A DNA stretch of 64,000 bases. Source: Campylobacterota bacterium. GTDB lineage: Bacteria > Campylobacterota > Campylobacteria > Campylobacterales > Sulfurovaceae. The translations under genes were made by a program, and so were the position numbers. The stretch covers positions 1 to 64,000 of the forward strand of contig QKDN01000054.1 in the NCBI GenBank assembly GCA_003252535.1, read 5' to 3'. The first letter of the stretch is position 1. Each line of letters begins with the position of its first letter. The notes under the pieces were generated by a model that was not told where the DNA came from, did no database searches, and saw only the letters and a program-made list of their open reading frames with translations. Positions 43,224 through 64,000 of this stretch are shown here, one piece after another.

Positions 43224-43330
43224 ACCGACACGGTACATTTGCCTCCGGCTGCCGGGATAGCAGCGCCGATTCAGAAGAAAGCGGCAGAAAACGGGTACAA
43301 TTAGCTAACCTAAACAAGCAAGGAGCAAGA

Positions 43331-44476
43331 GTGGGACTGAAGGTACTGCTGGTATTTGGGACGAGACCCGAGGCGATCAAGATGGCGCCCCTGGTCAAAA
43401 GACTGGAACTCGAAGAGTCGATCGACTCGAGGGTCTGCGTCACCGCGCAGCATCGGCAGATGCTCGACCAGGTGCTCGATATCTTCGAGATCACGCCCCA
43501 TTACGATCTCGATATCATGAAGCCCGGACAGGATCTCTACGATGTCACGACCAATGTCATGCAGGGACTTCGTGAAGTGCTGGTCGATTTCACCCCCGAT
43601 CTCGTCCTCGTCCACGGCGATACCACTACCACCTTCGCTGCTTCGCTGGCAGCTTTCTACCAGAAGATCAGGATCGGGCATGTCGAAGCGGGACTGCGCA
43701 CCCGTAACCTCTACAGCCCATGGCCCGAAGAGGCCAACCGACAGCTCACCGGAGTCCTCTGCGACTATCACTTCGCACCCACCCGGATGAGCCGGGATAA
43801 CCTCCTCGAAGAGCACAAGAATCCGCAGAATATCATCGTCACCGGCAATACCGTCATCGATGCGCTTTTTCTCGCTCTCGAGAAGATCGAAAATGATAAT
43901 GAATTAAAAGAAAAGATCATCTCGGCGATCTCGCAGCACTATGCTATCGATGAATCGAGGAGATTCATCCTCGTCACCGGGCACCGCAGGGAGAACTTCG
44001 GTGAAGGGTTCATCCATATCTGCGAAGCGCTCAAAGAGATAGCCATGAGCAATCCGGGAATTGATATCGTCTATCCCGTCCACCTCAATCCCAATGTCCA
44101 GAAACCTGTCAATGAACTCCTCGGCGATACCCCGAACATCTACCTGATAGAGCCGCAGCAGTACGAGAACTTTATCTACATGATGGAAAAAGCCCATTTT
44201 ATCATCACCGACAGCGGCGGTGTGCAGGAGGAGGCGCCGAGCCTGGGCAAACCTGTCCTGGTGATGCGCGACACTACCGAACGCCCCGAAGCGGTCGAAG
44301 CAGGCACCGTCAAGCTCGTCGGCACCGATCGCGAGCTCATCATCCGTGAAGCCCAGAGACTCCTCGACGATGAGGCAGAATACGAGCGGATGAGCCAGGC
44401 GCACAACCCCTACGGCGACGGGAAGGCGTGTGAGAGGATAGTGGAATTCATCAAAGGTGAACATCAAAGGATATGA
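43331..44476 (+). CDS. wecB: UDP-N-acetylglucosamine 2-epimerase (non-hydrolysing)
   Basis: It interconverts UDP-GlcNAc and UDP-ManNAc. The 381-residue protein has [17 protein letters not shown] at the N terminus, [26 protein letters not shown], the substrate segment TGHRRENFG and [20 protein letters not shown]. The start is GTG 43331 with AAGGAG five bases before. A TACAAT box at 43296-43301 may give it its own promoter. Its stop overlaps the pglK ATG (ATGA). Confidence 0.93.
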
Positions 44477-46167
44477 TAAAAAAACTTGGGAGTCTTTTTA
44501 CAAGGCGGGATAAACAGGTACTGCTGGGTCTGTTCTTCTTTTCGATCTTTATCTCCCTGCTTGAGATGATCGGTGTATCGATCATCATGCCGTTTATCTC
44601 CGTTGCTTCTGATTTCTCCCTGATCGACAACAATGAGTATTTCCGATCTTTGTATCAGTATTTTTCTTTTGCATCACCGATAGATTTCGTAGTGGCATTC
44701 GGGTTCTTTCTGATATTTTTCTATCTTTTCAGAAGCGGTGTGAACCTTTTTTATTTTTATCTGCTGTCACGATTTTCAAGAGGGAGATATCACCTCCTCG
44801 CGTACAGGCTTTTCGAGAACTACCTTGGGATGAGCTATCGGAACTTTATCGAGAAGAACAGTAGTGAACTGAACAAGACGATCGTGCAGGAGGCACATAA
44901 TCTGACTCTGCTCCTATCATCGTTCCTGTTTATGATAAGCGAGGTTTTCGTGGTGATCCTGATCTACTCGATGATGCTCTATATCAACTGGAAGATCACC
45001 ATTCTACTGAGTCTTATATTGGGCGTGAATGCTGTTTTTATAGTCAAGTTTATCACTCCGAAGATCAAGCGGGCAGGGGATAAACGGGAGAGATTCCAGA
45101 AAGATTTTTTTGAGATCATCAACAGCACACTGGGGAACTTCAAGCTTATCAAGCTCAAATCCGACCAGCAGGAGATCATGGACCGTTTTTCGAACGCCAG
45201 CTACGGGTACGCGAAGAGCAATATTGCCAATGAGACCTTCGGTCAGTTCCCAAGGCTTTTCCTTGAGGCTATAGGTTTTTCCATTATCTCTTTCATCGTG
45301 ATCTATCTGGTTTTGAAGTATCAGAGCGATATCTCCGGGGCATTGGCGCTTATTTCAATGTTTGTCGTAGGGCTTTACCGTCTGATGCCATCTGTCAACC
45401 GTATCCTGACCAGCTACAACCAGATTATGTTCTATAGCGGTGCACTCGATATCGTCCACAATGATCTTATGTATGACAGTGAAATACTCTCACAGGAAAC
45501 TATCGAATTTAACCGTTCTATAGAGCTTCACGATGTCTATTTCGGATACAATGAAGAGAAACTACTCTTTAGCGGGCTTGAACTCAAGATAGAGAAGGGG
45601 CAAAGCATCGCTTTTGTCGGGGAGAGCGGCGGTGGCAAGTCTACGCTGGTCGACCTGATCATGGGGCTCTACCGTCCGGTCGAAGGGGGGATCATGATCG
45701 ACGGCGTCAGGCTCACCGATCATAATATCCGTGCATGGCGGCAGAAGATAGGCTACATTCCACAGAGCATCTATCTCTTTGACGGGACGGTCGCGCAGAA
45801 TGTTGCTTTCGGGAGTGACATCGATGCTGCACGGGTCAAAGAAGTGTTGCGACAGGCAAATATCCTGGAGTTTCTCGAGCGCCATCAGGAAGGGATAGAG
45901 ACCGTGGTAGGAGAAGGGGGGATCAAGCTCAGCGGCGGGCAGAAACAGCGCATAGCGATCGCAAGGGCACTCTATAACGATCCCGAGGTCCTGGTCCTCG
46001 ACGAAGCGACCTCGGCACTCGATACAGAAACAGAAGCGAAGATCATGGACGAGATCTATGAGATTGCCAGAGAGAAGACACTCATCATCATTGCTCATAG
46101 GCTCAGTACGATCGAGAGGTGTGACAGGAAGTATAAGCTGGAGAACGGGAGAATCGATGTCCTATAG
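44473..46167 (+). CDS. pglK: PglK-type lipid-linked oligosaccharide flippase (ABC exporter)
   Basis: A fused half-transporter of 564 residues, the same length as Campylobacter jejuni PglK. Six membrane helices (about 15-310) precede an ATPase domain with GESGGGKST Walker A, LSGGQKQR signature, [11 protein letters not shown] Walker B and AHRLSTI switch. PglK uses ATP to flip the finished undecaprenyl-linked glycan to the periplasm for PglB. Position inside the pgl locus supports this over a generic MsbA-type exporter. The sequence is more AT-rich than the dehydrogenase and epimerase genes before it. It overlaps the next gene. Confidence 0.88.
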
Positions 46168-49704: not shown

Positions 49705-50622
49705 ATGCTTGTTACGGTCATGATTCCCACCTATAACCAGGAAGAATATATCGTGCAAGCCATTCAAAGTGCGCTCGCTCAGACCTACTTGGATCTGGAA
49801 GTGATCGTCTGTGATGACAATTCAACGGACGATACATTCCAAAAAGCATCAAAGATCAAAGATAAGCGCCTGAAGGTCTGTAAAAACGAGGCCAATCTCG
49901 GGAGGGTCGGAAACTACCGAAAGCTTCTCTACGAACTGGCACATGGTGAGTATGTCATCAACCTTGACGGGGATGATTATTTTGTGGATGAGAGCTATAT
50001 TGCGCGTGCTGTAGAGCTCATAGAGACCCACTTCCTGGATATGGTATTTTCCAATCAGATCATCAAATATACGGAAACCGAGAAGCAGACATCGATGCGC
50101 CTGCCTGCTGTATTGGATGGGAACTGGCTGTTTATGAATTACGGTACGGATGGCATCCATATCCCGCATATGAGTGCTTTGTACCTCAGGGGAAAAGCGC
50201 TCGGTCTGGATTTCTATTCAAAGGACATCATCAGTTCTGACTGGGAGTCGCTCCTGAAGTTCATAATCAGCTCACAGATAGGGTTTTTACCCGAATGCAG
50301 CGGTGCATGGAGACAGGTCGAAAACTCCCAGAGCAAACCGAAAAATATCGATGTGATCTTCAAGAACTTTATGCTGATAGATTCTGTATATAACTACGCA
50401 CAGGATCATTTCCGGACGGAGCAATTAATAGCATGGAAAAATCGTATGGATATAGCATTTTTACGCAATATACCCATACAGAACATTGCCTGCAATTTTC
50501 GCAGGATCGTTATGTTCTCCTTGGAGCGGGTATCATGGTGGGGCTTTATGAAAGTTCTTTTCAATTATAGGTTTCTGGGCAAACTTATCATAGGGAAAAT
50601 GAAATATCGATGTGCGGCATAG
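49705..50622 (+). CDS. Family 2 glycosyltransferase
   Basis: The start is ATG 49705. The 305-residue protein has VTVMIPTYNQEEYIVQAI, EVIVCDDNSTDDTF, YVINLDGDDYF (DxD-type) and a typical GT2 acceptor region. It follows the preceding GT2 without a gap and overlaps the asnB-type gene by 13 bases. Role: cytoplasmic addition of one sugar; donor unknown. Confidence 0.87.
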   Translation: MLVTVMIPTYNQEEYIVQAIQSALAQTYLDLEVIVCDDNSTDDTFQKASKIKDKRLKVCKNEANLGRVGNYRKLLYELAHGEYVINLDGDDYFVDESYIARAVELIETHFLDMVFSNQIIKYTETEKQTSMRLPAVLDGNWLFMNYGTDGIHIPHMSALYLRGKALGLDFYSKDIISSDWESLLKFIISSQIGFLPECSGAWRQVENSQSKPKNIDVIFKNFMLIDSVYNYAQDHFRTEQLIAWKNRMDIAFLRNIPIQNIACNFRRIVMFSLERVSWWGFMKVLFNYRFLGKLIIGKMKYRCAA

Positions 50623-52475
50623 TAGGGTATAACTCCAGGAACAGTGCCAGGATGGATCGTATGCTCCGGAGCATACACCATCGCGGTCCCGATGATAGCG
50701 GTAGATATGAGGGGGAGAAGTTTTCACTCGGGCATGTGCGGCTCTCCATCCTCGATCTGAGCTCCCTGGGGCATCAGCCGATGCAGTACGAACATCTTGT
50801 CATGGTCTACAACGGAGAGGTCTACAACTTCGAAGAGATCAAAGAGGAGCTGCTCCTGCACGGCTATACCTTCGTCTCCCACTCAGATAGCGAGGTGATC
50901 CTCAAAGCCTACCACAAATGGGGTATCAAGGCGGTCGACAGGTTCATCGGGATGTTTGCCATAGCGTTTTATGATACCACAGCGCAGCGTGTGACACTGG
51001 TGAGGGACAGGGTCGGGGTGAAGCCGCTTTATTATTATCATGACGGCAAGGATTTCGTGTTTGCAAGTGAACTGAAAACGATCATGGAGTATACAGGCGA
51101 CCTTGTGATATCCCATGATGCGATGGGCGAGTTCTTCAGCTTCGGATATATCTCTTCGAACCTCTCGATATTCGAGCAGTGTTTCAAGCTTCCGGCCGGA
51201 CACTACGGCGTATTTGACATAGATAGGGCGACATTTGAAGTGCACGAATACTGGTCTGTTATCCCTTTCTTCAGGATGGCCAAATTTCAAAAGAGCGAGG
51301 AGGAACTGGTCGACGAGCTCGAAGCTCTTTTGATCGATGCGTGCCGCTACAGGATGGTCGCCGATGTCCCGGTCGGGGTCTTCCTGAGCGGAGGGGTCGA
51401 CAGTTCGCTGGTCGCTGCCATTTTGCGGAAGCACCACGGCGATATCCACACTTTTACGATAGGATTCAAGGAAGAGCGGTACAGCGAAGCGGCATACGCC
51501 AGGGGCGTGGCAGAGCATATCGGCACGACACATACGGAGAGGTTCCTTGATGCAAGCGAGGCGAAAGAGATACTCGACCATTTCACGGATATCTATGACG
51601 AACCTTTCGGGGACAGTAGCGGTATCCCTACGACCCTCGTATCGAGGGTAGCCAAAGAGGCAGGTGTCAAAGTCGTCCTCAGTGCAGACGGAGGGGATGA
51701 GGTGTTCTGCGGGTATGAGAGATACTGGCTTGGACACAAGGTCGGCAGAGTCGTCCTTGCCATGCCATACTTTATACGCAAAACGCTTGCATGGCTGATG
51801 GACAGAATAGGCTCGCAGAGAGCTTCAAAGCTGGTCAGGATCAGAAATTTCGAACATAAATACAATCAGCTATCAGAGATGCTCAGGGATGAGAGTTGGC
51901 AGGATGTTTACCAGAAGATGCTTCGGACATTCAAGGGCACTGAGACCAAAGAGCTGCTTGGCAGTGACATCAGGATAGAGGAGAAAAGTTTCCCTGTCGG
52001 TGAAAAAGAACACCCTATGCAGGGGATGATGCTGTGGGATTACCATCGCTACCTGACAGACGATATCCTCGTCAAGGTCGATCGTGCCACGATGAGCGTC
52101 TCAATCGAGGGGCGGGAACCGCTGCTCGATCACAGGATAGCAGAATTCATGGCAAGGGTTCCCTTCAGGCTCAAGTACAAGGACGGTACGAGCAAATACC
52201 TCCTTCGAAAAGTGCTCGAGCGCTATATCCCCAAAGAGCTCATAGACAGACCCAAGATGGGGTTTGCCATACCGATGGAGGAGTGGTTCGGCAAGGATCT
52301 CAGGGAGCTCTTCGAAACGAATTTCACTGCTCAGGAAACGGTCGGCGGCAAACTGCTCAACAACAGCTATATCCAAAACGAGTATGACAAATTCAAAAAA
52401 GGGAAGCTTGTGAATATGAACAAGCTCTGGCTGATTCTGGTATTTCAAATGTGGTATCGAAAATATGTCAGATAA
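50610..52475 (+). CDS. asnB: AsnB-type glutamine amidotransferase (asparagine synthase family)
   Basis: The 621-residue protein has Cys2 as N-terminal nucleophile (MCGIVGY), the glutaminase motifs HRGPDD and YNGEVYN, and a synthase domain with the PPi loop SGGVDSS. It could make asparagine, but inside a glycan locus such proteins often amidate the carboxyl of a uronic acid sugar, as with WbpS-like proteins in O-antigen clusters. The 6-dehydrogenase in this locus would supply the acid, so the glycan role is my preferred reading. It overlaps both neighbours, consistent with one operon. Confidence 0.85.
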   Translation: MCGIVGYNSRNSARMDRMLRSIHHRGPDDSGRYEGEKFSLGHVRLSILDLSSLGHQPMQYEHLVMVYNGEVYNFEEIKEELLLHGYTFVSHSDSEVILKAYHKWGIKAVDRFIGMFAIAFYDTTAQRVTLVRDRVGVKPLYYYHDGKDFVFASELKTIMEYTGDLVISHDAMGEFFSFGYISSNLSIFEQCFKLPAGHYGVFDIDRATFEVHEYWSVIPFFRMAKFQKSEEELVDELEALLIDACRYRMVADVPVGVFLSGGVDSSLVAAILRKHHGDIHTFTIGFKEERYSEAAYARGVAEHIGTTHTERFLDASEAKEILDHFTDIYDEPFGDSSGIPTTLVSRVAKEAGVKVVLSADGGDEVFCGYERYWLGHKVGRVVLAMPYFIRKTLAWLMDRIGSQRASKLVRIRNFEHKYNQLSEMLRDESWQDVYQKMLRTFKGTETKELLGSDIRIEEKSFPVGEKEHPMQGMMLWDYHRYLTDDILVKVDRATMSVSIEGREPLLDHRIAEFMARVPFRLKYKDGTSKYLLRKVLERYIPKELIDRPKMGFAIPMEEWFGKDLRELFETNFTAQETVGGKLLNNSYIQNEYDKFKKGKLVNMNKLWLILVFQMWYRKYVR

Positions 52476-53607
52476 GAAAAAAATGTCGATCTTTTTGTAT
52501 TCTCTTGCAGCCGGAGGAGCCGAGAGAGTAGCTGCTACGCTAATCAACAGGCTCGAACCGGGATATGACATCACTCTCTTTCTGATGCGTTCATCTATCT
52601 TCTACGATCTCCCAAAAGATATCAGGATCGTCTACCTCGAAGACTCCGATCCCAGAGAGAGCGGGATAATGAAGCTACTGAAGCTTCCTCTTCTTGCATG
52701 GCGATACAAACGGTACAATGATGCCCCTGTATCACTTTCGTTCATGAACAGACCGAACTATGTCAATGTTCTTGCAAAGCTCTTTGGGATGCGAAGCAAG
52801 GTGATCGTAAGCGAAAGAAGCACTCCATCACAGATGTACGGTGACGGCTCGCTACAGTCAAAGATCAACCGGTTCCTGATCCGTGCCCTCTATGCAAAAG
52901 CAGATGTCGTCACATCCAACTCACTGGGGAACAGCAGAGACCTTGAGGAACACTTTGGGCTCAGAGGCGTGGTGACGCTCAATAATCTTTTTGATCTTGA
53001 GCGGATCGGACAGCTCTCGCAGGAACTGGTTACAGTAGAGAAAAAAAGATTTACATTCATTACTGTAGGAAGGCTTGATGCCAACAAGAACCACAGGCTC
53101 CTGATCGATGCGGTCAGGAATGTGGATGCCGATCTTTGGATCATCGGTGATGGGGAGCTGCGCAGCTCTCTGGAGCAATATATCTCCGAGAGCGGACTGG
53201 AGGATCGAGTCGTACTACTGGGGCAGAGACCGAACCCTTTTGCGTATATCTCGAAAGCTGACTGCTTTGTATTCAGCTCGCTGCATGAGGGCTTCCCGAA
53301 TGTCCTTGTGGAGGCCCTGGCTTGCGGTCTGCCCGTCATCAGTACCGACTGCCCCAACGGCCCGAGGGAGATACTCGCCCCCTCAGGTACGAAGGAGACT
53401 TTGCTGGGCTTCAATGACGGGATCGAGAGAGCACGATACGGTATCCTGGTGCCCAACGGGAACGAAATAAGGATGACGGAAGCGATGGAGCTGATCGCCG
53501 GGAACATGGAGATGAGAGAGGAGTACGGCAACAGAGCCGGAGAACGGAGCCGTGATTACGGGATAGAAAATATCATCCACCAGTATGAGGAGCTTATCAA
53601 CTCATGA
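52465..53607 (+). CDS. Family 4 glycosyltransferase (PglH/PglJ-like)
   Basis: A 380-residue GT-B enzyme. The N-terminal half has LYSLAAGGAERVAATLI and the conserved VIVSERS; the C-terminal half has TVGRLDANKNHRLLIDAV, WIIGDGELR and the ExxE-type nucleotide motif HEGFPNVLVEALACGLPVI. These patterns match the PglH/PglJ GalNAc-transferase group of the Campylobacter N-glycan path. The number of sugars it adds cannot be told. It overlaps the asnB-type gene by 11 and pglA by 4 bases. Confidence 0.87.
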   Translation: MSDKKKMSIFLYSLAAGGAERVAATLINRLEPGYDITLFLMRSSIFYDLPKDIRIVYLEDSDPRESGIMKLLKLPLLAWRYKRYNDAPVSLSFMNRPNYVNVLAKLFGMRSKVIVSERSTPSQMYGDGSLQSKINRFLIRALYAKADVVTSNSLGNSRDLEEHFGLRGVVTLNNLFDLERIGQLSQELVTVEKKRFTFITVGRLDANKNHRLLIDAVRNVDADLWIIGDGELRSSLEQYISESGLEDRVVLLGQRPNPFAYISKADCFVFSSLHEGFPNVLVEALACGLPVISTDCPNGPREILAPSGTKETLLGFNDGIERARYGILVPNGNEIRMTEAMELIAGNMEMREEYGNRAGERSRDYGIENIIHQYEELINS

Positions 53608-54746
53608 AAAAATTCGGTTTTTTGTCACACTTGGATATGAACCTCTATCTCTTTCGGGGGGCGATCATGAAAGAGCTTCTCCGAAGGGGGCACAAGGTCT
53701 ATGCGATCTGTCCCGAGGGTGAGAAGAACCAGGCGCTCAGGGAGATGGGATGCGAAGTGATCAATTACAGGATCGACCGTAAAGGGCTGAATCCCTTCAG
53801 TGAGAGAAAAGCGATAGAGAGTATCTATCATGCGATCAGGGACCTCCATATCGACATTCTCCATACCTTTACCGCCAAGCCCAATATCTACGGTACATTT
53901 GCTGCCAGAAGAGCGGGGATACCGGTGGTGCTGAACCTGGTGGAGGGGCTGGGGTCCTTCTACACGAAGGATACACTTAGGAATGTCATCATACGAAACA
54001 TCATGGAGCGTCTGTACAAAAAGGCCTTTGCCCTCTCGGACGGATGTGTCTTCGTCAACAGCAGCGACCCCGAATATATGATCAGGAAAAAGATCATCCC
54101 CAGGGAGAAAGTGAAGATCATCACAAGCGTGGGTGTAAATACGGAGAAGTTCTCCATGGATAATTATAGCCAGGAGAAGTTACTGGAGATAAAACGGAAG
54201 CTTGGATATGAAGGAAAGAGCGTCATCCTGATGGTGGCGCGCGCCATCTGGGACAAGGGGGTGGCCGAATATTACGAAGCGGCGGAACAACTCTCTTCAA
54301 GATACAAAGATTGCGTTTTTTTGCTGGTCGGGGGGACTGATGAAGGGAATCCCACCTGTGCGAGCGAGACGTTCCTGCAAGAGGGGCGTGTGCACTGGCT
54401 CGGACATCGTGATGATATCGCCGATATCACGGCGATAAGCGATATCTATGTCCTCCCGAGCTACAGGGAGGGGCTCCCCGCGACCCTGATGGAGGCGAGT
54501 GCGATGGCCAAGCCGATTGTTGCGACTGATACGTTTGGATGCAAGGATGTGGTGGAAGACGGGGTCAACGGTTTTCTCGTCCCTGTACGCGACGGCAGGA
54601 GACTGGGGGAGAAGATAGAGGTATTGATCAACGACATCCCTCTGCGGAAGGAGATGGGAGCACGTGGCCGGGAGAAGGCTCTGCGTATCTTCGACGTCCG
54701 CAAGGTGGTAGCACAGTATCTTGATTATTATCAAAAATTCTTGTAG
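53604..54746 (+). CDS. pglA: PglA-like family 4 glycosyltransferase
   Basis: PglA adds the second sugar (GalNAc in Campylobacter jejuni) onto undecaprenyl-PP-bacillosamine. This 380-residue protein aligns by eye with PglA along its length: GFLSH at the start, LVEGLGSFYTKD, SVGVNTEKF, ARAIWDKGVAEYYEAA, LLVGGTDEGNPTCAS and VLPSYREGLPATLMEASAMAKPIV. It lies just before pglB. The acceptor sugar may differ from C. jejuni if the bacillosamine carries another acyl group. Confidence 0.88.
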   Translation: MKKFGFLSHLDMNLYLFRGAIMKELLRRGHKVYAICPEGEKNQALREMGCEVINYRIDRKGLNPFSERKAIESIYHAIRDLHIDILHTFTAKPNIYGTFAARRAGIPVVLNLVEGLGSFYTKDTLRNVIIRNIMERLYKKAFALSDGCVFVNSSDPEYMIRKKIIPREKVKIITSVGVNTEKFSMDNYSQEKLLEIKRKLGYEGKSVILMVARAIWDKGVAEYYEAAEQLSSRYKDCVFLLVGGTDEGNPTCASETFLQEGRVHWLGHRDDIADITAISDIYVLPSYREGLPATLMEASAMAKPIVATDTFGCKDVVEDGVNGFLVPVRDGRRLGEKIEVLINDIPLRKEMGARGREKALRIFDVRKVVAQYLDYYQKFL

Positions 54747-54807: not shown

Positions 54808-56955
54808 ATGTTATTATCGGAAAACAAAAAAGCAGCTCTTTTGATACTCGCGGCATTTATTTTCAGTTTCGCGGTCAGACTTATCTGGGTCAACCAGTTC
54901 AGCCATGCCGAGAATTTCAAATTCAAGAACGAATTTATGATCAATACCAACGATGGCTATTTCTGGGCCGAGGGGGCGAGGGATATCCTCAAAGGCTCGC
55001 ATGAAGTGAACGATCTTTCACCTGTGGATTATGCTGCATCCCAGCTGACGGCATTTTTTGCCAAGGTCGTCCCGGTTTCTTTTGAAACGCTGATCTTCTA
55101 TCTCCCTGCATTTTTGTCTTCGCTGATCGTCATACCTATCCTGCTTATCGGAAGATCGCTCCACCATGTCGGGGTGGGGTTCATTGCTGCTCTTATCGGA
55201 TCGATTGCCTGGAGCTACTACAACCGTACGATGATAGGATACTACGATACCGATATGCTTACCATCGTATTCCCGACCTTCCTGTTATGGTCACTGATAT
55301 GGGCAGTTCGCACGAGGGAGGAGAAATACCTCCTCTTTACAGGGCTTATTGTAATTGGATATCAATGGTGGTATCTCTCCGGGTATGCACTGGAATTTGC
55401 CTTTGCAGGTGTGATCGCACTCTATTCGGTCTATCTCTTTGTAAAAAAGCAGGAGTTCAAGTATGAGCTGAAGCTCATTGCAGTGATCCTTGTCGCTATG
55501 ACAGGGTTCTCGATCCTTGTGAAACTCGCGATGGTTGCTATTATCTATCTGATCGCCAAGAAGGATATGCCGATACAGTATGTGTATGCGATCCTTGGTG
55601 TGGCAGTAGCCCTTTTTATCTTCGGCGGCGGGATAGAGCCCGTATGGGCACAGGTCAAAGGTTATATCTTCAGAGAAGTGACATCGGGGGAACAGACGGG
55701 ATTGAAATTACAGTTCTTCAATGTTGCCCAAACCGTCAGGGAAGCTGGACAGATCCCGTTCGAGACATTTGCCAACCGTATCAGCGGGGCTACGATCAGC
55801 TTCTTTATCGCATGTATCGGATATGTATGGATGGCATACAGGTATCGCGTCATGCTGATCGCTTTGCCAATGGTGGGACTGGGATTCCTGGCATACGGTA
55901 TACCTGGTCTGATCAACGGGGGCGGTCTGAGATTTACCGTTTATGCGGTACCTGTTATGGCGCTTGGTACAGCATTTCTGATCGTTGAGGTCTCCAGAGT
56001 GCTGTCAGATACGTTTTTCAAGGAATCTACAACAGGTCTGGGGCACTATACACTGCTCTTCGTCCTGACGGCATTGAGTCTCTATCCCAATATCAGGCAT
56101 GTACAGGAGTATATGGTACCGACAGTATTCAATACCCAGGAAGTGGAGATGCTTGATAAGCTGGGGAAGGTTGCTTCGAGAGAAGACTATGTGGTATCAT
56201 GGTGGGATTACGGCTACCCAATACGATACTACAGTGATGTCAAAACACTTGTAGATGGTGCAAAACACAACGGTGATGTCAACTTCCCCGTCAGTTGGAT
56301 GCTGAGCTCACCGGTGCAGGCAGCGGCAAAACTTGCCAGGTTTGAAGTAGAATATACGGAAAAGCAGTTCCATGATGAGAACCTCAGTAAAAAAAGTACG
56401 ATAGAACTGATGACACTCGATCAGAAACTGGACAATACGAACGATTTCCTGGCACTTCTTGAAACTGATATCAAACTGCCGGCCAAGACCAGAGATATCT
56501 ACTTCTATCTCCCTTACAGGATGCTCGATATCTATCCCACAGTCATGATGTTCAGTAACCTTGACCTGATGAACGGTAAGAAAAAGCGGGATATCAAATT
56601 CTATCCGACACAGGTGCAGGCTGTGGAAGGAAATGAAGTGATGCTTGCGAACGGGATACTGTTCAATGCTCAAAGTGGTGTTCTGAGCGCAGGCGGAAGC
56701 AGCAAAAATGTGCGTTTCGTAGTGAGTACGGAGTATGTGAACGGGAACAAACTCCAGGTGAACAAACAGTTCTATCATGCCGACGGGGAGTACTGTATCG
56801 TTTTCCTGAAAAGCTACAACAGAGTTATCGCGATGGACAGCGATACATTCAATTCATTGTATGTGCAGATGTTTATGCTGGAAAACTACGATCCCAAACT
56901 GTTCGAACCGGTGCAGATGTCGCCGTATGCAAAGATATACAAGCTTAAAGTGTAA
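54808..56955 (+). CDS. pglB: PglB oligosaccharyltransferase
   Basis: PglB transfers the lipid-linked glycan en bloc to Asn in D/E-X-N-X-S/T sites on the periplasmic side. The 715-residue protein (713 in C. jejuni) has about 13 membrane helices (to about 430) and a periplasmic domain with the sequon-binding WWDYG motif at 465-469. Early acidic motifs are visible in the first loop ([13 protein letters not shown]) and in [15 protein letters not shown] precedes the ATG. The gene sits between pglA and pglC as in Campylobacter-type loci. Confidence 0.97.
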
Positions 56956-56959
56956 ACCG

Positions 56960-57568
56960 ATGTACGAATGGGGCAAAAGGCTTTTTGATATAGTGTTGTC
57001 ATTAACACTTTTGCTCCTGTTCGCTCCGATCTTTCTCTTCGTATCGGTTCTGATACTTGTTACAATGGGGCGGCCTATACTTTTTCGCCAGCAGCGTCCG
57101 GGGAGAGGTGGAGAGGTATTCGGTATCTACAAATTCCGTACGATGAGCGATGAGCGTGACAGTGATGGCAACTTGCTCCCGGATGTACAGAGACTGCATG
57201 GTGCAGGGAAGTTTATCCGCTCGACTAGCCTCGATGAGCTGCCGCAGCTCTTCAATGTTCTTTTTGGCGAGATGAGCTTCGTCGGTCCCCGACCGCTCCT
57301 GGTAGGGTATCTGCCGCTCTATAACGACAGGCAAAAAAAACGCCATGATGTTCTTCCCGGTATCACGGGATGGGCTCAGGTCAACGGGCGCAATGCGATC
57401 AGCTGGGAAGAGAAGTTCGAGTACGATGTCTGGTATGTTGAACACCGGTCGTTCGGACTCGATATGAAGATACTCTGGATGACCTTGATCAAAGTACTCA
57501 AACGAAGCGGTATCAGCAGCGAAGGGCATGCGACGATGGAAGCTTTCAAAGGGACTAAAGAGAACTGA
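56960..57568 (+). CDS. pglC: PglC phosphoglycosyltransferase (initiating transferase)
   Basis: PglC moves phospho-bacillosamine from the UDP-sugar onto undecaprenyl phosphate. The 202-residue monotopic protein has an N-terminal re-entrant helix ([21 protein letters not shown]), the YKFRTM segment, the catalytic Asp-Glu dyad in [13 protein letters not shown], and FVGPRPLL and [12 protein letters not shown]. The start ATG 56960 lies 4 bases after pglB; the longer open frame upstream overlaps pglB and is not used. A 72-bp gap follows before the acyl module. Confidence 0.95.
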
Positions 57569-57640: not shown

Positions 57641-57862
57641 ATGACACGCGAAGAACTGATTGAAGCACTTGAAGATATACTGATGCTGGATGAGGGTGAA
57701 CTGGAGACGGACAAGTCACTGGAGAGCTATGAAGACTGGGACTCTATGAGCTATCTCAGCCTCATCGCACTCTTTGACGGGAAGCTGGGCAAAAAGCTTG
57801 ATATCGCTACGATCAAAGGCTTCAAGACCCCTCAAGATATTATTGATTCCGCCGCACTCTGA
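57641..57862 (+). CDS. Acyl carrier protein of the pgl-embedded acyl module
   Basis: A 73-residue acidic four-helix protein. The phosphopantetheine attachment site is Ser35 in DWDSMSYLSL, where Met replaces the usual Leu of the DSL motif. It is much diverged from fatty-acid AcpP and therefore a dedicated carrier. AAGGAG precedes the ATG. Its TGA overlaps the start of the first KAS III gene (TGATG), giving translational coupling. It should hold the growing or modified acyl chain for the two synthases, the oxygenase and the reductase that follow. Confidence 0.85.
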   Translation: MTREELIEALEDILMLDEGELETDKSLESYEDWDSMSYLSLIALFDGKLGKKLDIATIKGFKTPQDIIDSAAL

Positions 57863-58818
57863 TGTTCAGGATAGGGACCTGCCTCCCCGGGAAGATCGTC
57901 ACGAACGAGGATCTCAAGTATCTGGGATGGAGTGCGAAAAAGATATATGCCAAGACAGGTATCAGGCAAAGACACTGCGTAGACAAAGATGAAACTGCCC
58001 TTGATCTGGCGCAGAGCGCATGTGATGATCTCTTCGGGAAGTATGGTATAGAGAGGGAAGGGATCGACTACCTGCTCTACTGTACCCAAAGCCCCGATCA
58101 TATCATCCCCGCAAGCGTCAACCTGCTCCACAAGCGGTTGGGTCTGAGGAGTGAGATCGCTTCGCTGGAGTACAACCACGGCTGCAGCGGCTATCTCTAT
58201 GGGCTCTCTCTGGCCAAGGCCCTGATAGAGAGTGGCATGGCCTCAAGGCTGCTGCTCGTGACAGCCGATACCTACAGCAGGTATATCGACGCGAACGACA
58301 GGGCCAACAAGACGATCTTCGGCGACGGGGCGACGGCGACACTGCTCGAAGCTACTGATGTAGCAAAGTTCGGAAGTTTCATCTTCGAGACCAACGGCGA
58401 AGGTGCGTGCAATCTCTGTGTCAACAGGAGCGGACTCTCTGATGAGATATTGTCTCCAGAAGGGATGGAGAAGAAGCTCTATATGAATGGTGGTGAGATA
58501 TTCAACTTCACCCTTGAGAGGGTTCCATCCGCCATCGCCAGGGTCCTTGAGAAGAACGATGTTTCGTTTGAGGATATAGACCATTTTGCCTTCCACCAGG
58601 CCAATGACTTTATGCTGGAATATCTCCGGCAAAAGCTTCAGGTGCCTGCTGAGAAATTCCCCAAATACCTGGAAAATATCGGCAATACCGTCTCGTCGAC
58701 CATCCCTTTCCTCCTCAATGATCTCAATGGAAAAGGGACGTTGCAAAGAGGTGAGAAGCTGCTCCTCATCGGGTTCGGTGTCGGCTACTCTCTGGGTGCG
58801 ACGGTCATAGAGTACTAA
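57862..58818 (+). CDS. KAS III-like 3-oxoacyl-ACP synthase, first copy
   Basis: A 318-residue FabH-type thiolase-fold enzyme with a complete triad: Cys108 (NHGCSGYLYGL), His245 (FHQAN) and Asn275 (NIGNTVSST). KAS III condenses a CoA-bound starter with malonyl-ACP. It has the normal length but lacks the family's usual AACAG-type surrounding of Cys, so the starter may not be acetyl-CoA. It is directly coupled to the ACP gene, which suggests it uses that carrier. FabH relatives such as CerJ can instead transfer acyl groups to sugars, a real alternative here. Confidence 0.87.
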   Translation: MFRIGTCLPGKIVTNEDLKYLGWSAKKIYAKTGIRQRHCVDKDETALDLAQSACDDLFGKYGIEREGIDYLLYCTQSPDHIIPASVNLLHKRLGLRSEIASLEYNHGCSGYLYGLSLAKALIESGMASRLLLVTADTYSRYIDANDRANKTIFGDGATATLLEATDVAKFGSFIFETNGEGACNLCVNRSGLSDEILSPEGMEKKLYMNGGEIFNFTLERVPSAIARVLEKNDVSFEDIDHFAFHQANDFMLEYLRQKLQVPAEKFPKYLENIGNTVSSTIPFLLNDLNGKGTLQRGEKLLLIGFGVGYSLGATVIEY

Positions 58819-58831
58819 AAAGGAAACCGCG

Positions 58832-59878
58832 ATGCATACGAAGATCAAAAACTGCTCCCTCAGGCATATCGAGACGATGGTTCCCCCGACGATCGTCGAT
58901 AATATGAGCCTCGATTTCGATGAGAAGTTCAAGAAGAAAGTAGTCAAAAATACAGGCGTCAGGCAGCGCCATGTACTTGACGATGATATGTCACTGCTCG
59001 AGCTCTACGAGGCAGCAGGCTGCAATACCCTGGAGAAGCTTGGCTGGGAGAGGGAGAGCATCGACGGTATCATCGTCGTCACGCAGACACCAGAATACCA
59101 GCTCCCTGCTACCGCGGCGATCCTCCAGGGGAGACTGGAGCTCTCCAAAGATACTTTCGCCTACGATATCTCGATGGGGTGTTCGGGGTATATCTACGGC
59201 CTCTACAGCGCCATGTCCCATATCGCCGCTTCTGACGGTGAGATCAGGAGGGTACTGCTCTTCGTCGGTGATGCCATCAGTACGATCGTCCACCCGAAGA
59301 ACAGGTCGAGCGTTTTCCTTTTCGGCGATGCGGCAAGCTGCTCTGCCCTTGAGTATGACCCGGGTGCTTCGGTCACACCGTTCGTGCTCAAGAGCGACGG
59401 GAGCGAATACCGGAGTATCATCGTAGAGGACGGCGGGCTGAGGAACAGAATCGGCAAGCACTCTTTCGAAGAGTATACCGACGAAGAGGGGAATGTCAAT
59501 ACCCGCGCCTCACTCAAAATGGACGGTGCGACGGTCTTCAACTTCACCGTGGAGAATGTCCCTGCACTGATCGAAGAGACCCTCGCCTATGGCGGGATGG
59601 AGAAGGGGGAGATCAGCCGCTATTGTTTCCACCAGGCCAACAAGTTCATGGTTGATTTTCTCTCTATGAAGGCAGGGATACATGAGAAGACACCTGTCAA
59701 TATCGACAAATTCGGCAATACCTCTTCTGTCTCGATCCCGCTGCTGCTGAGCGATTTCGAGATCAGTGAAAAGAACACTATGCTGATAGGTTTCGGGGTG
59801 GGGATGTCGATGGGTACCTGCATTGTCGATCTCGGGCACACCTCCACGGCCCACAGTGTCTACCAAAAAAAGGATTGA
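58832..59878 (+). CDS. KAS III-like 3-oxoacyl-ACP synthase, second copy
   Basis: A 348-residue relative of the preceding gene, also with an intact triad: Cys117 (SMGCSGYIYGL), His267 (FHQAN) and Asn296 (KFGNTSSVS). It is longer, with an insertion near residues 195-225 (GGLRNRIGKHSFEEYTDEEG). The two copies share the Cys and His blocks but differ elsewhere, so they have separate jobs or form a heterodimer. It begins 13 bases after the first copy and ends 1 base before the Rieske gene. Confidence 0.87.
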   Translation: MHTKIKNCSLRHIETMVPPTIVDNMSLDFDEKFKKKVVKNTGVRQRHVLDDDMSLLELYEAAGCNTLEKLGWERESIDGIIVVTQTPEYQLPATAAILQGRLELSKDTFAYDISMGCSGYIYGLYSAMSHIAASDGEIRRVLLFVGDAISTIVHPKNRSSVFLFGDAASCSALEYDPGASVTPFVLKSDGSEYRSIIVEDGGLRNRIGKHSFEEYTDEEGNVNTRASLKMDGATVFNFTVENVPALIEETLAYGGMEKGEISRYCFHQANKFMVDFLSMKAGIHEKTPVNIDKFGNTSSVSIPLLLSDFEISEKNTMLIGFGVGMSMGTCIVDLGHTSTAHSVYQKKD

Positions 59879-59879
59879 T

Positions 59880-60929
59880 GTGAAAAATGTTCGCGACTAT
59901 TTCTCAGCCGATACACTTGACATGGAGGAGAAAGCGCTTTTTGAGCCCTTCTTCCACTACGGCTGCCACAGGAGCGAGCTGTCACAGAACGGCAGCTATG
60001 TGAAGCTGAGCTGTTTTGGGAACGATATCATCATCTACAACGACAACGGCGATATCGTCTGTTTCGACAATATCTGCCCCCACAGAGGCGCACCCTTTTT
60101 GTGTAGCGGGGAGAACGAGGGGTGCGAGAAGCTCCGCTGCCCCTATCACGGCTGGCAGTACGAGAACGGCAGGCTGGTGATCCCCAACCGCAGCCAGTTC
60201 AAGGAATCGGAGCTCCAGGATGTCGATATCCTCCGCTATGAGGTTGCATACTGCGGCGATTTTGTCTTTTTCTCCAAAGCGCCATTGATGAGGCTGCGGG
60301 AGCAGCTCGGGGATTTTTATGAGACCCTGGAGAAGATATCCGTTTCTATCGAGCGAAAGATCGATCTCAACCGCACCTCTTTCGCTTCCAACTGGAAGAT
60401 ATCGCTGGAAAATGCTCTCGAGAACTACCATGTCCCGAGCGTACACCCGGGTACCCTCGCGCCCCTTGAGCTGAGCAACGGGGAGATAGTGTTCGATGGT
60501 CTCAACTCCATCTGGATCAGCGATATCAGGAACCAGAAAGCCTTCAGGAAGCTTGAGCGTCTCGACCATGTATTCGAGGATGGCATCTACCGCAGGGACA
60601 ACTACTTCAGTATCTACCTCTTCCCCTTCAGTATGATCTCATCGACGTTCGGCTACTCCTATGCCTTCCAGTCCTTCTTCCCGGATATGCCCGGAAGCAC
60701 GAGCTTCTACAGCCGTACTTACAGTGTACGGAGCCGTCTCGATACCGAGGCGTTCTACAATAGTGTGAAGAGCGTCAACAGGCAGATATTCGACGAGGAT
60801 ATCAGGGTGTGCAATATGCTCCAGAAAGCGCTCAAGGGGAAAGAGATCAGGTTCGTCTACAACGAGCTTGAAAAGAGGATCGTCAATTTCCAGAAGAACT
60901 ACGGCCGGTATATGGAGGATGAGCAATGA
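59880..60929 (+). CDS. Rieske-type non-haem iron oxygenase
   Basis: Start GTG 59880, just after the previous stop, preceded by AAGG. The 349-residue protein has a Rieske [2Fe-2S] domain with Cys66-x-His68 (CPHRGAP) and Cys87-x2-His90 (CPYHGW). Then comes a catalytic domain with NWKISLENALENYHVPSVHP, where His184 and His189 are the likely mononuclear iron ligands. This is the alpha-subunit layout of ring-hydroxylating and other Rieske oxygenases. Electron-transfer partners are not in the window. In this operon it probably hydroxylates or oxidises the acyl chain or the sugar. Confidence 0.87.
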   Translation: MKNVRDYFSADTLDMEEKALFEPFFHYGCHRSELSQNGSYVKLSCFGNDIIIYNDNGDIVCFDNICPHRGAPFLCSGENEGCEKLRCPYHGWQYENGRLVIPNRSQFKESELQDVDILRYEVAYCGDFVFFSKAPLMRLREQLGDFYETLEKISVSIERKIDLNRTSFASNWKISLENALENYHVPSVHPGTLAPLELSNGEIVFDGLNSIWISDIRNQKAFRKLERLDHVFEDGIYRRDNYFSIYLFPFSMISSTFGYSYAFQSFFPDMPGSTSFYSRTYSVRSRLDTEAFYNSVKSVNRQIFDEDIRVCNMLQKALKGKEIRFVYNELEKRIVNFQKNYGRYMEDEQ

Positions 60930-61684
60930 TCACATTTGAAAGCAGCGATACATTTCTGGTCACAGGGGCCGGCTCAGGCCTCGGCGAAGCGACCGCACTG
61001 AAGCTCAACGCACTTGGGGCGACTGTCATCGCAGTGGGGCGTGATACCGGGAAACTTGAAGATGTCAGGCAAAAGGCGGCTATGGGTGAGAACTTCCATA
61101 TTACAGGCTTTGATCTCTCCCGGACCGACGAGATCGGTACCTTTGTCAAAGGTATCGTCAAGCAATACGGCAAACTGAGCGGTGTAGCCCATTTCGCCGG
61201 GATGAGCTCCCTCTTCCCACTCCGTGCCACTTCGCTCGAGACGATCAGGGAGATGTTCGAGCTCAATTTTTTCTCCTCTTACGAGTTGCTCAAGGCGATG
61301 AACGACAAGAGACTCAAAAGTCCCGATGGGTGTTCGGTCGTACTGGTCTCCTCGATCAGTTCGATGAGAAGCTTCGAGGGGCTCAGCGCCTACGGTGCGA
61401 GCAAAGGGGCCGTGGATGCACTGGTACGTTCAAGTGCGCTCGAACTTGCCAGAAGCTCGGTCCGTATCAACTCCATCGTCCCCGGGCACATAGAGACGGC
61501 GATGACGCAGCAGCTTGCGGCGCTACAGAGCGACGAATACAGGCAGGAGATCGAGGACTCGTACCCCCTTGGTGCGGGAGAGCCTGAGGATGTGGCCAAC
61601 CTCGCTACCTTCCTGCTCTCGGGCACATCGAAATGGATAACGGGTCAGAATATCGTCGTCGACGGCGGCAGAACCCTCAACTAA
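60926..61684 (+). CDS. Short-chain dehydrogenase/reductase (FabG-like)
   Basis: The 252-residue protein has the cofactor motif TGAGSGLGEA, the catalytic Tyr156-x3-Lys160 (SAYGASKGA), a Ser in VLVSSISSM, and PGHIETAM and ITGQNIVVDGG near the end. In an ACP/KAS operon a ketoreductase turning 3-oxoacyl-ACP into 3-hydroxyacyl-ACP is the simplest role; reduction of a keto-sugar is the alternative. The start overlaps the Rieske gene by 4 bases. Confidence 0.88.
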   Translation: MITFESSDTFLVTGAGSGLGEATALKLNALGATVIAVGRDTGKLEDVRQKAAMGENFHITGFDLSRTDEIGTFVKGIVKQYGKLSGVAHFAGMSSLFPLRATSLETIREMFELNFFSSYELLKAMNDKRLKSPDGCSVVLVSSISSMRSFEGLSAYGASKGAVDALVRSSALELARSSVRINSIVPGHIETAMTQQLAALQSDEYRQEIEDSYPLGAGEPEDVANLATFLLSGTSKWITGQNIVVDGGRTLN

Positions 61685-61699
61685 ACAACAGGAACCCAA

Positions 61700-62347
61700 A
61701 TGTCAAAAAAGATTGCGCTCATAGGCGGAGGCGGATTTGCCAAGGAGATCATCGAGGTGATGGAGCTGCTCGGACACAGTGTCTATGGGATCTTTGCCCA
61801 TACGAACAGTTTCATGGAGTATCACCATTACGGATACCTCGATGAGCTCCTGATCCACCGGGGAGAATACGACGCCGTCCATATAGCCTTCGGCGGAGTG
61901 ACCGGGGAGCAGATCGCCAACCGCAGGGCGATCATCGACTTTCTTGACCGCAATGGTATCGATGCGGTCACACTGGTATCACCATATGCGAGGATAGCCA
62001 AAAACGTCACCCTCGGGCAGGGGTGCTACATCGCCCATGATGTCTATATCTCCCAGGATGCCGCAGTAGGCGACCATGTCATCATCAACAACCGCTGCGA
62101 TATCGGGCATGATGTCGTGATCAGAGAGAATGTCACCATCAGCCCCAAGGTCTTCCTCGGCGGCGCTGTCGAAGTCGGAAGCGATACGCTCATAGGGGTA
62201 GGAAGTATCGTCAAGCAGGGGGTGAAGATAGGACACACATCGATCGTATCGATGGGCTCAAGCGTTATCAGGAACATCAAGCCCTATTCACTCGTCCTCG
62301 CCCCACAATCCACAGTACATAAAGAGTTTTACAAAAATGAGCAATAA
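61700..62347 (+). CDS. pglD: PglD/NeuD-family acyltransferase, divergent
   Basis: PglD acetylates the 4-amino group of UDP-4-amino-4,6-dideoxy-GlcNAc. This 215-residue protein has the N-terminal fold IALIGGGGFAKEIIEVMELLG and a left-handed beta-helix of hexapeptide repeats (IAKNVTLGQGCYIAHDVYIS, VGDHVIINNRCDIGHDVVI). The likely catalytic base is His137 in DIGHD. The C-terminal coil reads LVLAPQSTVHKEF instead of the usual G-V-P-A-K ending, and the sugar-binding segment near residues 30-45 is altered. Because it follows the acyl module directly, it may use an acyl-ACP or longer acyl donor. It overlaps pglE. Confidence 0.8.
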   Translation: MSKKIALIGGGGFAKEIIEVMELLGHSVYGIFAHTNSFMEYHHYGYLDELLIHRGEYDAVHIAFGGVTGEQIANRRAIIDFLDRNGIDAVTLVSPYARIAKNVTLGQGCYIAHDVYISQDAAVGDHVIINNRCDIGHDVVIRENVTISPKVFLGGAVEVGSDTLIGVGSIVKQGVKIGHTSIVSMGSSVIRNIKPYSLVLAPQSTVHKEFYKNEQ

Positions 62348-63440
62348 CAAACGCATCTTCCTCTCCTCCCCCCATATGGGCGGCAATGAACTGGAGTATA
62401 TCCACAGGGTCTTCGAGAGCAACTATATCGCGCCACTGGGCGAATATGTCGACAAATTCGAGCAGAGCGTCATCAGCTATACCGGGGCGAAGCATGCGCT
62501 GGCGGTGAGCAGTGGGACGGCGGCGATCCACCTTGCATTGAGGGTGCTCGGTATCGGGGAGGGGGATGATGTCCTCGCCTCCACCTTCACCTTCATCGGT
62601 TCGGTCAATGCCATCCTCTACCAGGGGGCGAACCCTGTATTCATCGACAGCGAGAAGGAGTCGTGGAACCTCTCGCCGGAGCTTCTCAACAAGTATCTCG
62701 TCAGTGGTGCCAAAAAGCCGAAGGCGCTCATCATCACCCACCTCTACGGTCAGTGTGCGCAGATAGGGCGGATCGCCGATATATGCAGGCTCCACGGCAT
62801 CTACCTGATCGAGGATGCCGCCGAGAGTCTGGGCGCTACCTACTACGGCAGGCATACGGGGACATACGGGGATTTCGGTATCTACTCTTTCAACGGCAAC
62901 AAGATCATCACCACCAGCGGCGGCGGGATGCTGGTGAGCGACAACAAAGAGTGGATCGAGAAGGCGAAGTTCTACTCCACCCAGGCCAAAGAGCCGTTCC
63001 TCCACTACGAGCATGAGGAGTACGGCTACAACTACCGTATGAGCAATGTCCTCGCTGCTATCGGCGTGGGGCAGATGGAAGTGCTCGAAGAACGGGTGGC
63101 GAAGAAGCGGCAGATATTCGAATGGTACCGTGGGTTCCTCGGCGAGAGGGTCGAATATATGAACGAGCTCGAGGGGAGCCGCGGCAACCGCTGGCTCACC
63201 ACTATATTACTCAAAGATACGGAGCCTATGAAGATCATCAAGGCCCTCGAGGAGATCAATGTCGAGTCGCGCCCGCTCTGGAAACCGATGCATATGCAGC
63301 CGCTCTTCAGGGATGCTGCCCGTTTCGTCGACGGCACCAGCGAGGAGCTCTTTGCCAGAGGGGTGTGCCTGGCGAGCTCGACGACGATGGAGCGTGAAGA
63401 TGTGGAGCGGATATGCGTCAAGATAGGGGAAAATCTCTGA
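62337..63440 (+). CDS. pglE: PglE aminotransferase (DegT/DnrJ/EryC1/StrS family)
   Basis: PglE converts the 4-keto product of PglF to UDP-4-amino-4,6-dideoxy-GlcNAc with glutamate as amino donor. The 367-residue protein shows VSSGTAAIHLALRVLG, FTFIGSVNAILY, LIEDAAESLGA (PLP Asp) and the Schiff-base Lys189 in FNGNKIITTSGGG. Length and motifs match C. jejuni PglE. It overlaps the preceding gene by 11 bases and pglF by one base. Confidence 0.93.
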   Translation: MSNNKRIFLSSPHMGGNELEYIHRVFESNYIAPLGEYVDKFEQSVISYTGAKHALAVSSGTAAIHLALRVLGIGEGDDVLASTFTFIGSVNAILYQGANPVFIDSEKESWNLSPELLNKYLVSGAKKPKALIITHLYGQCAQIGRIADICRLHGIYLIEDAAESLGATYYGRHTGTYGDFGIYSFNGNKIITTSGGGMLVSDNKEWIEKAKFYSTQAKEPFLHYEHEEYGYNYRMSNVLAAIGVGQMEVLEERVAKKRQIFEWYRGFLGERVEYMNELEGSRGNRWLTTILLKDTEPMKIIKALEEINVESRPLWKPMHMQPLFRDAARFVDGTSEELFARGVCLASSTTMEREDVERICVKIGENL

Positions 63441-64000
63441 TGAACCCCTGGTTGCAACCGACACCGCTCAAGAGGATATTGTTTTTTGTCATTGCAGACC
63501 TGATCCTCTCACTGGCGACCTTCTACCTCTCCTACGATCTGCGGTTCAATTACGATATCCCGTCGAATTTCCTCGAAGGATTCTGGGTCTTTTTCGCCCT
63601 CCTGGTCACGCTCAAGATCGGGGCACTCTACCTCTACAAGGTCTATTTTGCCGTATGGCGGTTCTTCGCCCTCAGTGAAGCACGAAGCATCGTCGCGGCC
63701 CATGTGCTCGCCTATACGATCTTTGCGCTCGTTTACCATCTGTTCCGTGACTCTTTCGACAGTTTTCCGCGGAGCGTCCTGATCATCGACTTCTTTATCT
63801 CCCTCTTTGCCCTCGGGCTGCTGCGGATGTCCAAGAGGCTGATCATCGAGCGCAACAGGCGAAGCAGGGTCAACCCTACGCTGATCATCGGTATCGGGAC
63901 CCATACCGCCTCGACGATCAGACACGCTCTCAGCGGTGAAATAGACTATTACCCAGTCGCTATCCTCGCTGCCGACAGGAACCGACACGCGGTCAACAGC
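63440..64000 (+). CDS. pglF: PglF UDP-GlcNAc 4,6-dehydratase, N-terminal part (runs off the window)
   Basis: The first 187 residues of a membrane-bound NAD-dependent dehydratase that makes UDP-4-keto-6-deoxy-GlcNAc, the first step to bacillosamine. About four membrane helices are seen (starting at residues 12, 43, 78 and 103). The segments FAVWRFFALSEAR and FPRSVLIIDFFISL match the N-terminal domain of C. jejuni PglF. The catalytic short-chain dehydrogenase domain lies beyond the right edge. The ATG at 63440 overlaps the pglE stop (TGATG). Confidence 0.9.
   Translation, partial: MNPWLQPTPLKRILFFVIADLILSLATFYLSYDLRFNYDIPSNFLEGFWVFFALLVTLKIGALYLYKVYFAVWRFFALSEARSIVAAHVLAYTIFALVYHLFRDSFDSFPRSVLIIDFFISLFALGLLRMSKRLIIERNRRSRVNPTLIIGIGTHTASTIRHALSGEIDYYPVAILAADRNRHAVNS

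Follow-up and report, generated by a model that had tools for sequence, protein, structure and literature searches.

A probable acyl cassette for the bacillosamine branch of N-glycosylation in a member of the Campylobacterota

Why would a bacterial N-glycosylation locus hold a set of fatty-acid-type genes in the midst of its bacillosamine genes? The question is raised by a stretch of 64,000 nucleotides from a Campylobacterota bacterium of the Sulfurovaceae (assembly GCA_003252535.1, contig QKDN01000054.1, positions 1 to 64,000; hereafter the window), in which five such genes stand between pglC and pglD. The window resembles the Campylobacter jejuni pgl pathway in its pglB, pglC, pglD, pglE, pglF and pglK types, but the latter has no acyl cassette and its PglD makes diacetylbacillosamine (diNAcBac) with acetyl-CoA. 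We think it probable that the five genes form a dedicated cassette, akin to type II fatty acid synthesis, serving the bacillosamine branch of N-glycosylation, and that the chain it makes replaces the acetyl on the 4-amino group of the sugar. The N-glycan would then most likely begin with a 4-N-(hydroxyacyl) analogue of bacillosamine and not with diNAcBac. Acyl cassettes of this kind have precedents, and it is the PglB context that looks new.

The cassette spans positions 57641-61684, with all five genes on the + strand in the order acyl carrier protein (ACP), two 3-ketoacyl-ACP synthases of type III (KAS III, here KAS1 and KAS2), Rieske oxygenase and short-chain dehydrogenase/reductase (SDR). 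Neighbouring genes overlap at stop and start or leave gaps of 1-13 bases. The locus also carries pglB and pglE, with pglF running just past the window edge. Domains were assigned with Pfam and NCBIfam models, as follows.

54808-56955, + strand: pglB, N-oligosaccharyltransferase (STT3-PglB_core, 4e-51; WWDYG in the translation)
56960-57568, + strand: pglC-like phosphoglycosyl transferase (Bac_transf, 4e-63)
57641-57862, + strand: acyl carrier protein (PP-binding, 2.9e-6; Ser35 in D-S-M)
57862-58818, + strand: KAS III of the KAS1 type (PRK09352, 258 bits; ACP_syn_III; KAS1 clade in the tree; Cys-His-Asn intact)
58832-59878, + strand: KAS III of the KAS2 type (ACP_syn_III; KAS2 clade in the tree; Cys-His-Asn intact)
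59880-60929, + strand: Rieske non-haem iron oxygenase, CntA/GbcA-like (Pfam Rieske and Ring_hydroxyl_A)
60926-61684, + strand: SDR resembling 3-ketoacyl-ACP reductases (adh_short_C2, 6.7e-50; FabG-type models)
61700-62347, + strand: PglD-type hexapeptide N-acyltransferase of the cassette-associated clade (TIGR03570, 157 bits, just under the cut-off of 160.8)
62337-63440, + strand: PglE-like aminotransferase (DegT_DnrJ_EryC1, 1.5e-93; TIGR04181, 394 bits, under the cut-off of 420)
63413-64000 in the window, continuing to contig position 65215, + strand: pglF-like 4,6-dehydratase of 600 amino acids, an open reading frame (ORF) reaching beyond the window edge

A PglB/STT3 protein with WWDYG thus stands together with PglC, PglD, PglE and PglF homologues, as in Pgl-type N-glycosylation loci, and the presence of an ACP, KAS III, a reductase and a PglD/VioB protein beside 4-amino-sugar genes places the cassette with those of the wfp and vio type discussed below. 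PglB scores 597 bits with the NCBIfam model ProtGlycPglB, under that model's cut-off of 1300, and the pglF-like protein is 45-63% identical to the proteins at the pglF position of related loci. The listed pglC ORF begins at 56861; the ATG at 56960 comes after the pglB stop. The Rieske gene likely starts at the GTG at 59880, behind AAGGA, giving 349 amino acids; a mechanical TTG start at 59823 would overlap KAS2. ORFs, domain matches and catalytic residues bear out the preliminary description, made from the letters of this DNA, in what it had reported here: five tightly coupled genes with intact active sites between pglC and pglD.

The association between acyl genes and pglD extends to relatives of this bacterium. 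Seven genomes of its family, six in one genus and one in another, have an acyl cassette just ahead of pglD (loci L168-L175 in G038, G039, G040, G045, G047, G048 and G112, with G045 split over two contigs). It is a different cassette, encoding FkbH, KAS III, ACP, SDR and a methylmalonyl-epimerase-like protein. Within the DNA stretches examined, ACP and SDR genes stand by pglD in all seven, and KAS III, FkbH, pglC and pglB were also seen in six. The whole run pglB-pglC-cassette-pglD-pglE-pglF is present in G038, G039, G040 and G047; no pglE or pglF was detected within the stretch examined in G048, and the 3.6 kb contig of G112, with a KAS fragment, ACP, SDR, pglD and pglE only, does not extend far enough for pglB, pglC or FkbH to be seen. 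The FkbH cassette resembles chemistry of the glyceryl-ACP type. Three further loci (L176-L178, in G012-G014) have a PglB about 61% identical to that of the window adjoining a pglF-like gene, and pglC, pglD and pglE were not detected in the vicinity.

PglD itself follows the presence of a cassette. The window protein is 49-53% identical to the PglD of the seven cassette loci and about 30-39% identical to those of cassette-free pgl loci. In the PglD tree, the window and the seven cassette loci form one clade (support 100/98), and eight PglD of cassette-free loci, two of them from the window's own genus, form another (100/99). As the tree program flagged a meeting of long branches in this region, the existence of the two clades is firmer than their relative placement. 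The window PglD does not group with the PglD of cassette-free loci. In the alignment, the cassette type keeps the catalytic H137-D138 and lacks the C-terminal GNPC of the other clade. Its predicted fold is nearest to PerB, Neisseria PglB, VioB and C. jejuni PglD, all of which are 4-amino-sugar N-acetyltransferases. No second PglD-like gene of comparable strength is listed in the window's genome, and no cassette-type PglD was found outside the family at E <= 1e-38 in a class-wide sample of 397 genomes.

The catalytic residues of the other proteins indicate what they might contribute. Both KAS proteins retain the Cys-His-Asn triad, and for this reason they look most likely to be condensing enzymes, leaving the transfer to the PglD homologue. 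KAS III of the CerJ type have Asp at the position of the catalytic Asn. A CerJ-like role of these KAS proteins is accordingly rejected; the preliminary description had named CerJ as a KAS III relative able to acylate sugars. KAS proteins of loci with this Rieske gene fall into two separate paralogue clades, of which the window holds one member each; its KAS2 clusters with the KAS2 of Helicobacter and Campylobacter Rieske loci (100/100), and the nearest solved sequence to its KAS1 is PDB 3GWA. The Rieske protein has the C-X-H...C-X2-H cluster and the 2-His-1-carboxylate iron site of alpha subunits; its cluster residues C66, H68, C87 and H90 and the catalytic-domain residues E177, N178, H184, H189, E306 and D307 are invariant in 23 aligned sequences. 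The predicted model (predicted local distance difference test score 93) has CntA as best fold match (template modelling score 0.80). Fold and metal ligands are shared with Rieske monooxygenases of the CntA/GbcA type, and so is the Glu at the bridging position, as in CntA; identity is about 20% and the window gene differs in its glycan-locus context. As CntA is an oxygenase of an aliphatic substrate, this closest fold would fit an aliphatic target, but it is no proof of one.

Precedents with established products suggest what such genes make. In Flavobacterium psychrophilum the O-antigen contains D-Qui2NAc4NR, where R is 3,5-dihydroxyhexanoyl, a structure obtained by nuclear magnetic resonance (PMC6519341). 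The locus (wfpB-wfpG) comprises a PglC homologue, two KAS, an ACP, a reductase and a PglD homologue, together with pglE and pglF, and its authors propose that a chain made in the manner of type II fatty-acid synthesis is handed over by ACP to the 4-amino group, the gene assignment being a prediction (PMC6519341). Going by published gene content, it shares with the window the PglC homologue, ACP, two KAS, ketoreductase, PglD homologue and the uridine diphosphate (UDP)-Qui2NAc4N intermediate; it differs in making an O-antigen and not a PglB N-glycan, and the searched text of that paper mentions no Rieske gene. Flavobacterium yafengii (L095), which stands in here for the F. psychrophilum wfpC-G sequences, has the order pglC-KAS-ACP-KAS-Rieske-SDR-pglD-pglE, that is, the gene content of wfpB-G plus a Rieske gene, which follows the second KAS and precedes the SDR as in the window. 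The viosamine island of Pseudomonas syringae (vioA, vioB, vioS, vioR and acp) puts 3-hydroxybutyryl on a 4-amino-6-deoxy sugar (PMC3927599). It too combines ACP, KAS III, reductase and a VioB acyltransferase, but has a single KAS, no Rieske in the published gene table, a deoxythymidine diphosphate-linked Qui4N and a flagellin O-glycan as product. In these two cases of known product, one KAS goes with a C4 chain and two KAS with a C6 chain. The Rieske gene is extra relative to both, and a single hydroxylation of a C6 chain would be the simplest reading of it.

The Rieske-containing set proved to be widespread. When one genome from each of 84,980 species was scanned, about 40 loci fell into the window's Rieske clade. 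They come from Helicobacter didelphidarum, two Campylobacter species, Pseudomonas, Burkholderia and its relatives, Caulobacter, Sphingomonas, Acetobacter and Flavobacterium, and the clade covers Proteobacteria, Bacteroidota and Campylobacterota. With further loci added, the full set of ACP, KAS1, KAS2, SDR, PglD/VioB and Rieske genes occurs within about 5.5 kb in 39 of 47 Rieske-clade loci (which are not independent, several being near-identical species of one genus) and in none of 41 control loci with more distant Rieske enzymes. The grouping is therefore not fortuitous, and we rejected the Rieske gene as a chance neighbour or degradation gene. The loci without a full set are partly on short contigs; an own PglD/VioB is present in 41 of the 47, and in place of PglD the Campylobacter loci offer an AAC(3)-like protein as candidate acyltransferase. 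Some of the loci have adjoining sugar genes of the VioA type, often by fliC/fliD; in the others, among them P. fluorescens EK007, P. helleri and F. yafengii, these genes are of the pglC/pglE/pglF type. Literature searches, confined to open-access papers, turned up none that describes a Rieske gene in a cassette of this kind. To the preliminary description its presence had seemed unusual, which does not hold for a gene recurring in some 40 species; the survey it had proposed, for the same genes next to pglC and pglD, does recover the set, but mostly in flagellin or polysaccharide loci and not in N-glycan loci.

Some of these loci deserve mention by themselves. Burkholderia glumae pBGF3 and related flagellin loci (L021, L227-L230) have the same gene set as the window, including the Rieske gene and both KAS types, but with a VioA sugar, adjoining flagellin genes and no pglB in the stretches examined. 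The PLSDB table lists no gene between ACP and SDR on pBGF3, yet a KAS2-type KAS III is encoded there (L021:17454-18553). A copy of the module in G478 (L026:7545-8126) has decayed to remnants of KAS2 and Rieske genes with stop codons. In Campylobacter estrildidarum and C. taeniopygiae (L029, L030) the module lies by PseB/PseC-like, DUF4910-like and AAC(3)-like genes, a flagellin-glycan-type locus, and in both species the KAS adjoining the Rieske gene is divided between two reading frames. KAS1 of the B. glumae Rieske locus is 82% identical to 3GWA, a KAS1 orthologue from B. pseudomallei, and a close Rieske orthologue is present in 5 of 65 Burkholderia genomes. Flagellin of B. pseudomallei carries 2 x 291 Da (PMC3958885), and Qui4N with trihydroxyhexanoyl has a computed mass of 291.13. 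Since the Rieske gene could not be shown there, we set this match aside as a numerical coincidence.

How did the window come by its Rieske gene? None of 174 other genomes of the family has an orthologue, so that the gene was probably acquired. In a class-wide sample its relatives are only those of the Helicobacter and Campylobacter type. GC content at third codon positions is 0.55-0.58 in pglB, pglC and ACP, and 0.66-0.79 from KAS1 through pglE; this jump near the cassette start could be the recombination edge of an acquired segment.

The same locus includes further glycan genes:

44473-46167, + strand: PglK-like ABC flippase (ABC_membrane and ABC_tran)
52465-54746, + strand: two glycosyltransferases of family GT4 (Glycos_transf_1)

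Counterparts of the latter adjoin pglB in the cassette loci L169 and L174. Positions 41970-44476 and 50610-52475 encode a UDP-sugar dehydrogenase, a WecB-type epimerase and an AsnB-like amidotransferase, which suggests an N-acetylhexosaminuronic acid amide residue in the N-glycan, like WbpO/WbpS of Helicobacter pullorum.

Taken as a pathway, PglF and PglE would form UDP-2-acetamido-4-amino-2,4,6-trideoxyglucose, while KAS1 and KAS2 would build up a chain on the locus ACP by condensation of malonyl units, its ketones being reduced by the SDR, most simply through 3-hydroxybutyryl-ACP to 3,5-dihydroxyhexanoyl-ACP. The Rieske enzyme would hydroxylate the chain once, and the divergent PglD would take it from ACP and attach it, instead of acetyl, to the 4-amino group. 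PglC would then load the acylated sugar onto the lipid carrier, and once the glycan is completed PglK would flip it and PglB transfer it to asparagine. The PglF and PglE steps and the general chain chemistry follow known families; for the acyl-ACP donor we infer from context, clade and the missing GNPC, and the chain length and identity, the Rieske step and where the sugar sits in the glycan are proposed in like manner. The first-sugar residue would have a mass of 332.158 with trihydroxyhexanoyl or 316.163 with dihydroxyhexanoyl, against 228.111 for diNAcBac.

Several points weigh against this reading. Among the cassette genes, to which the search was confined, none encodes a reductase or ferredoxin that could serve the Rieske protein. 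Nearly all other Rieske modules lie in flagellin or polysaccharide loci, and a PglB search in six Rieske-module relatives gave no match, with no positive control. In H. pullorum pglDEF is present although the main N-glycan begins with N-acetylhexosamine (PMC6025236), so that pglDEF by pglB is no proof of the first sugar. One might thus suppose that the cassette makes a 4-N-acyl amino sugar for lipopolysaccharide, capsule or a non-reducing position of the N-glycan, and not the Asn-linked residue, the more so as the genome encodes two Bac_transf proteins, the pglC-like one being only one of them. But the cassette is in line with pglB and pglC, and in each of the six relatives whose sequence is long enough the resident cassette is likewise flanked by pglB, pglC and pglD; we regard this alternative as rather unlikely. 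That PglD still makes diNAcBac with acetyl-CoA, the cassette acylating a different acceptor, such as another sugar by O-acylation, would agree with the kept His-Asp and with a fold like that of acetyl-CoA enzymes. It seems improbable given that the PglD type follows the cassette across the family, that the cassette has no other acyltransferase gene and that nearly all Rieske loci have their own PglD/VioB.

A dedicated acyl cassette for the 4-amino group is also compatible with another role of the Rieske enzyme, which might act on the sugar or turn an alcohol into a ketone. The chemistry of Rieske oxygenases is varied. The gene accompanies both KAS genes in loci with VioA-type and with PglE/PglF-type sugar genes alike, and the chain is therefore the more likely common substrate; we hold a role other than chain hydroxylation to be unlikely, if worth keeping in mind. 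Unrelated lipid or secondary-metabolite genes landing in the locus by chance would accord with the probable acquisition of the Rieske gene and the rise in third-position GC, but in different phyla the complete set turns up again with 4-amino-sugar genes, and in relatives the corresponding site is taken by other acyl cassettes, which makes such an accident very hard to believe. Hence, of the suggestion in the preliminary description that an acyl module replaces the acetyl of an amino sugar, the part that stands is the tie between dedicated acyl-ACP genes and a bacillosamine-type 4-amino group, through the PglD clade, the PglD fold and the F. psychrophilum precedent (PMC6519341).

More broadly, it is conceivable, though we would not quite wager on it, that a lineage of Campylobacterales N-glycosylation has exchanged the acetyl of bacillosamine for a locus-encoded hydroxyacyl, with two or more interchangeable cassettes (two-KAS/Rieske and FkbH/KAS), a dedicated PglD clade, the acyl-sugar directly on Asn and, in the window, a Rieske-hydroxylated C6 acid as chain. 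The predicted masses open this to glycoproteomics, and the analysis draws attention to a widespread Rieske-containing acyl cassette. The first sugar governs which glycans PglB enzymes accept (PMC11164674, PMC6025236). A natural family with variable acyl on that sugar would, if real, offer PglB, PglC and PglD of unusual range for glycoengineering, and the seemingly constant core of bacterial N-glycans would be variable through gene cassettes.

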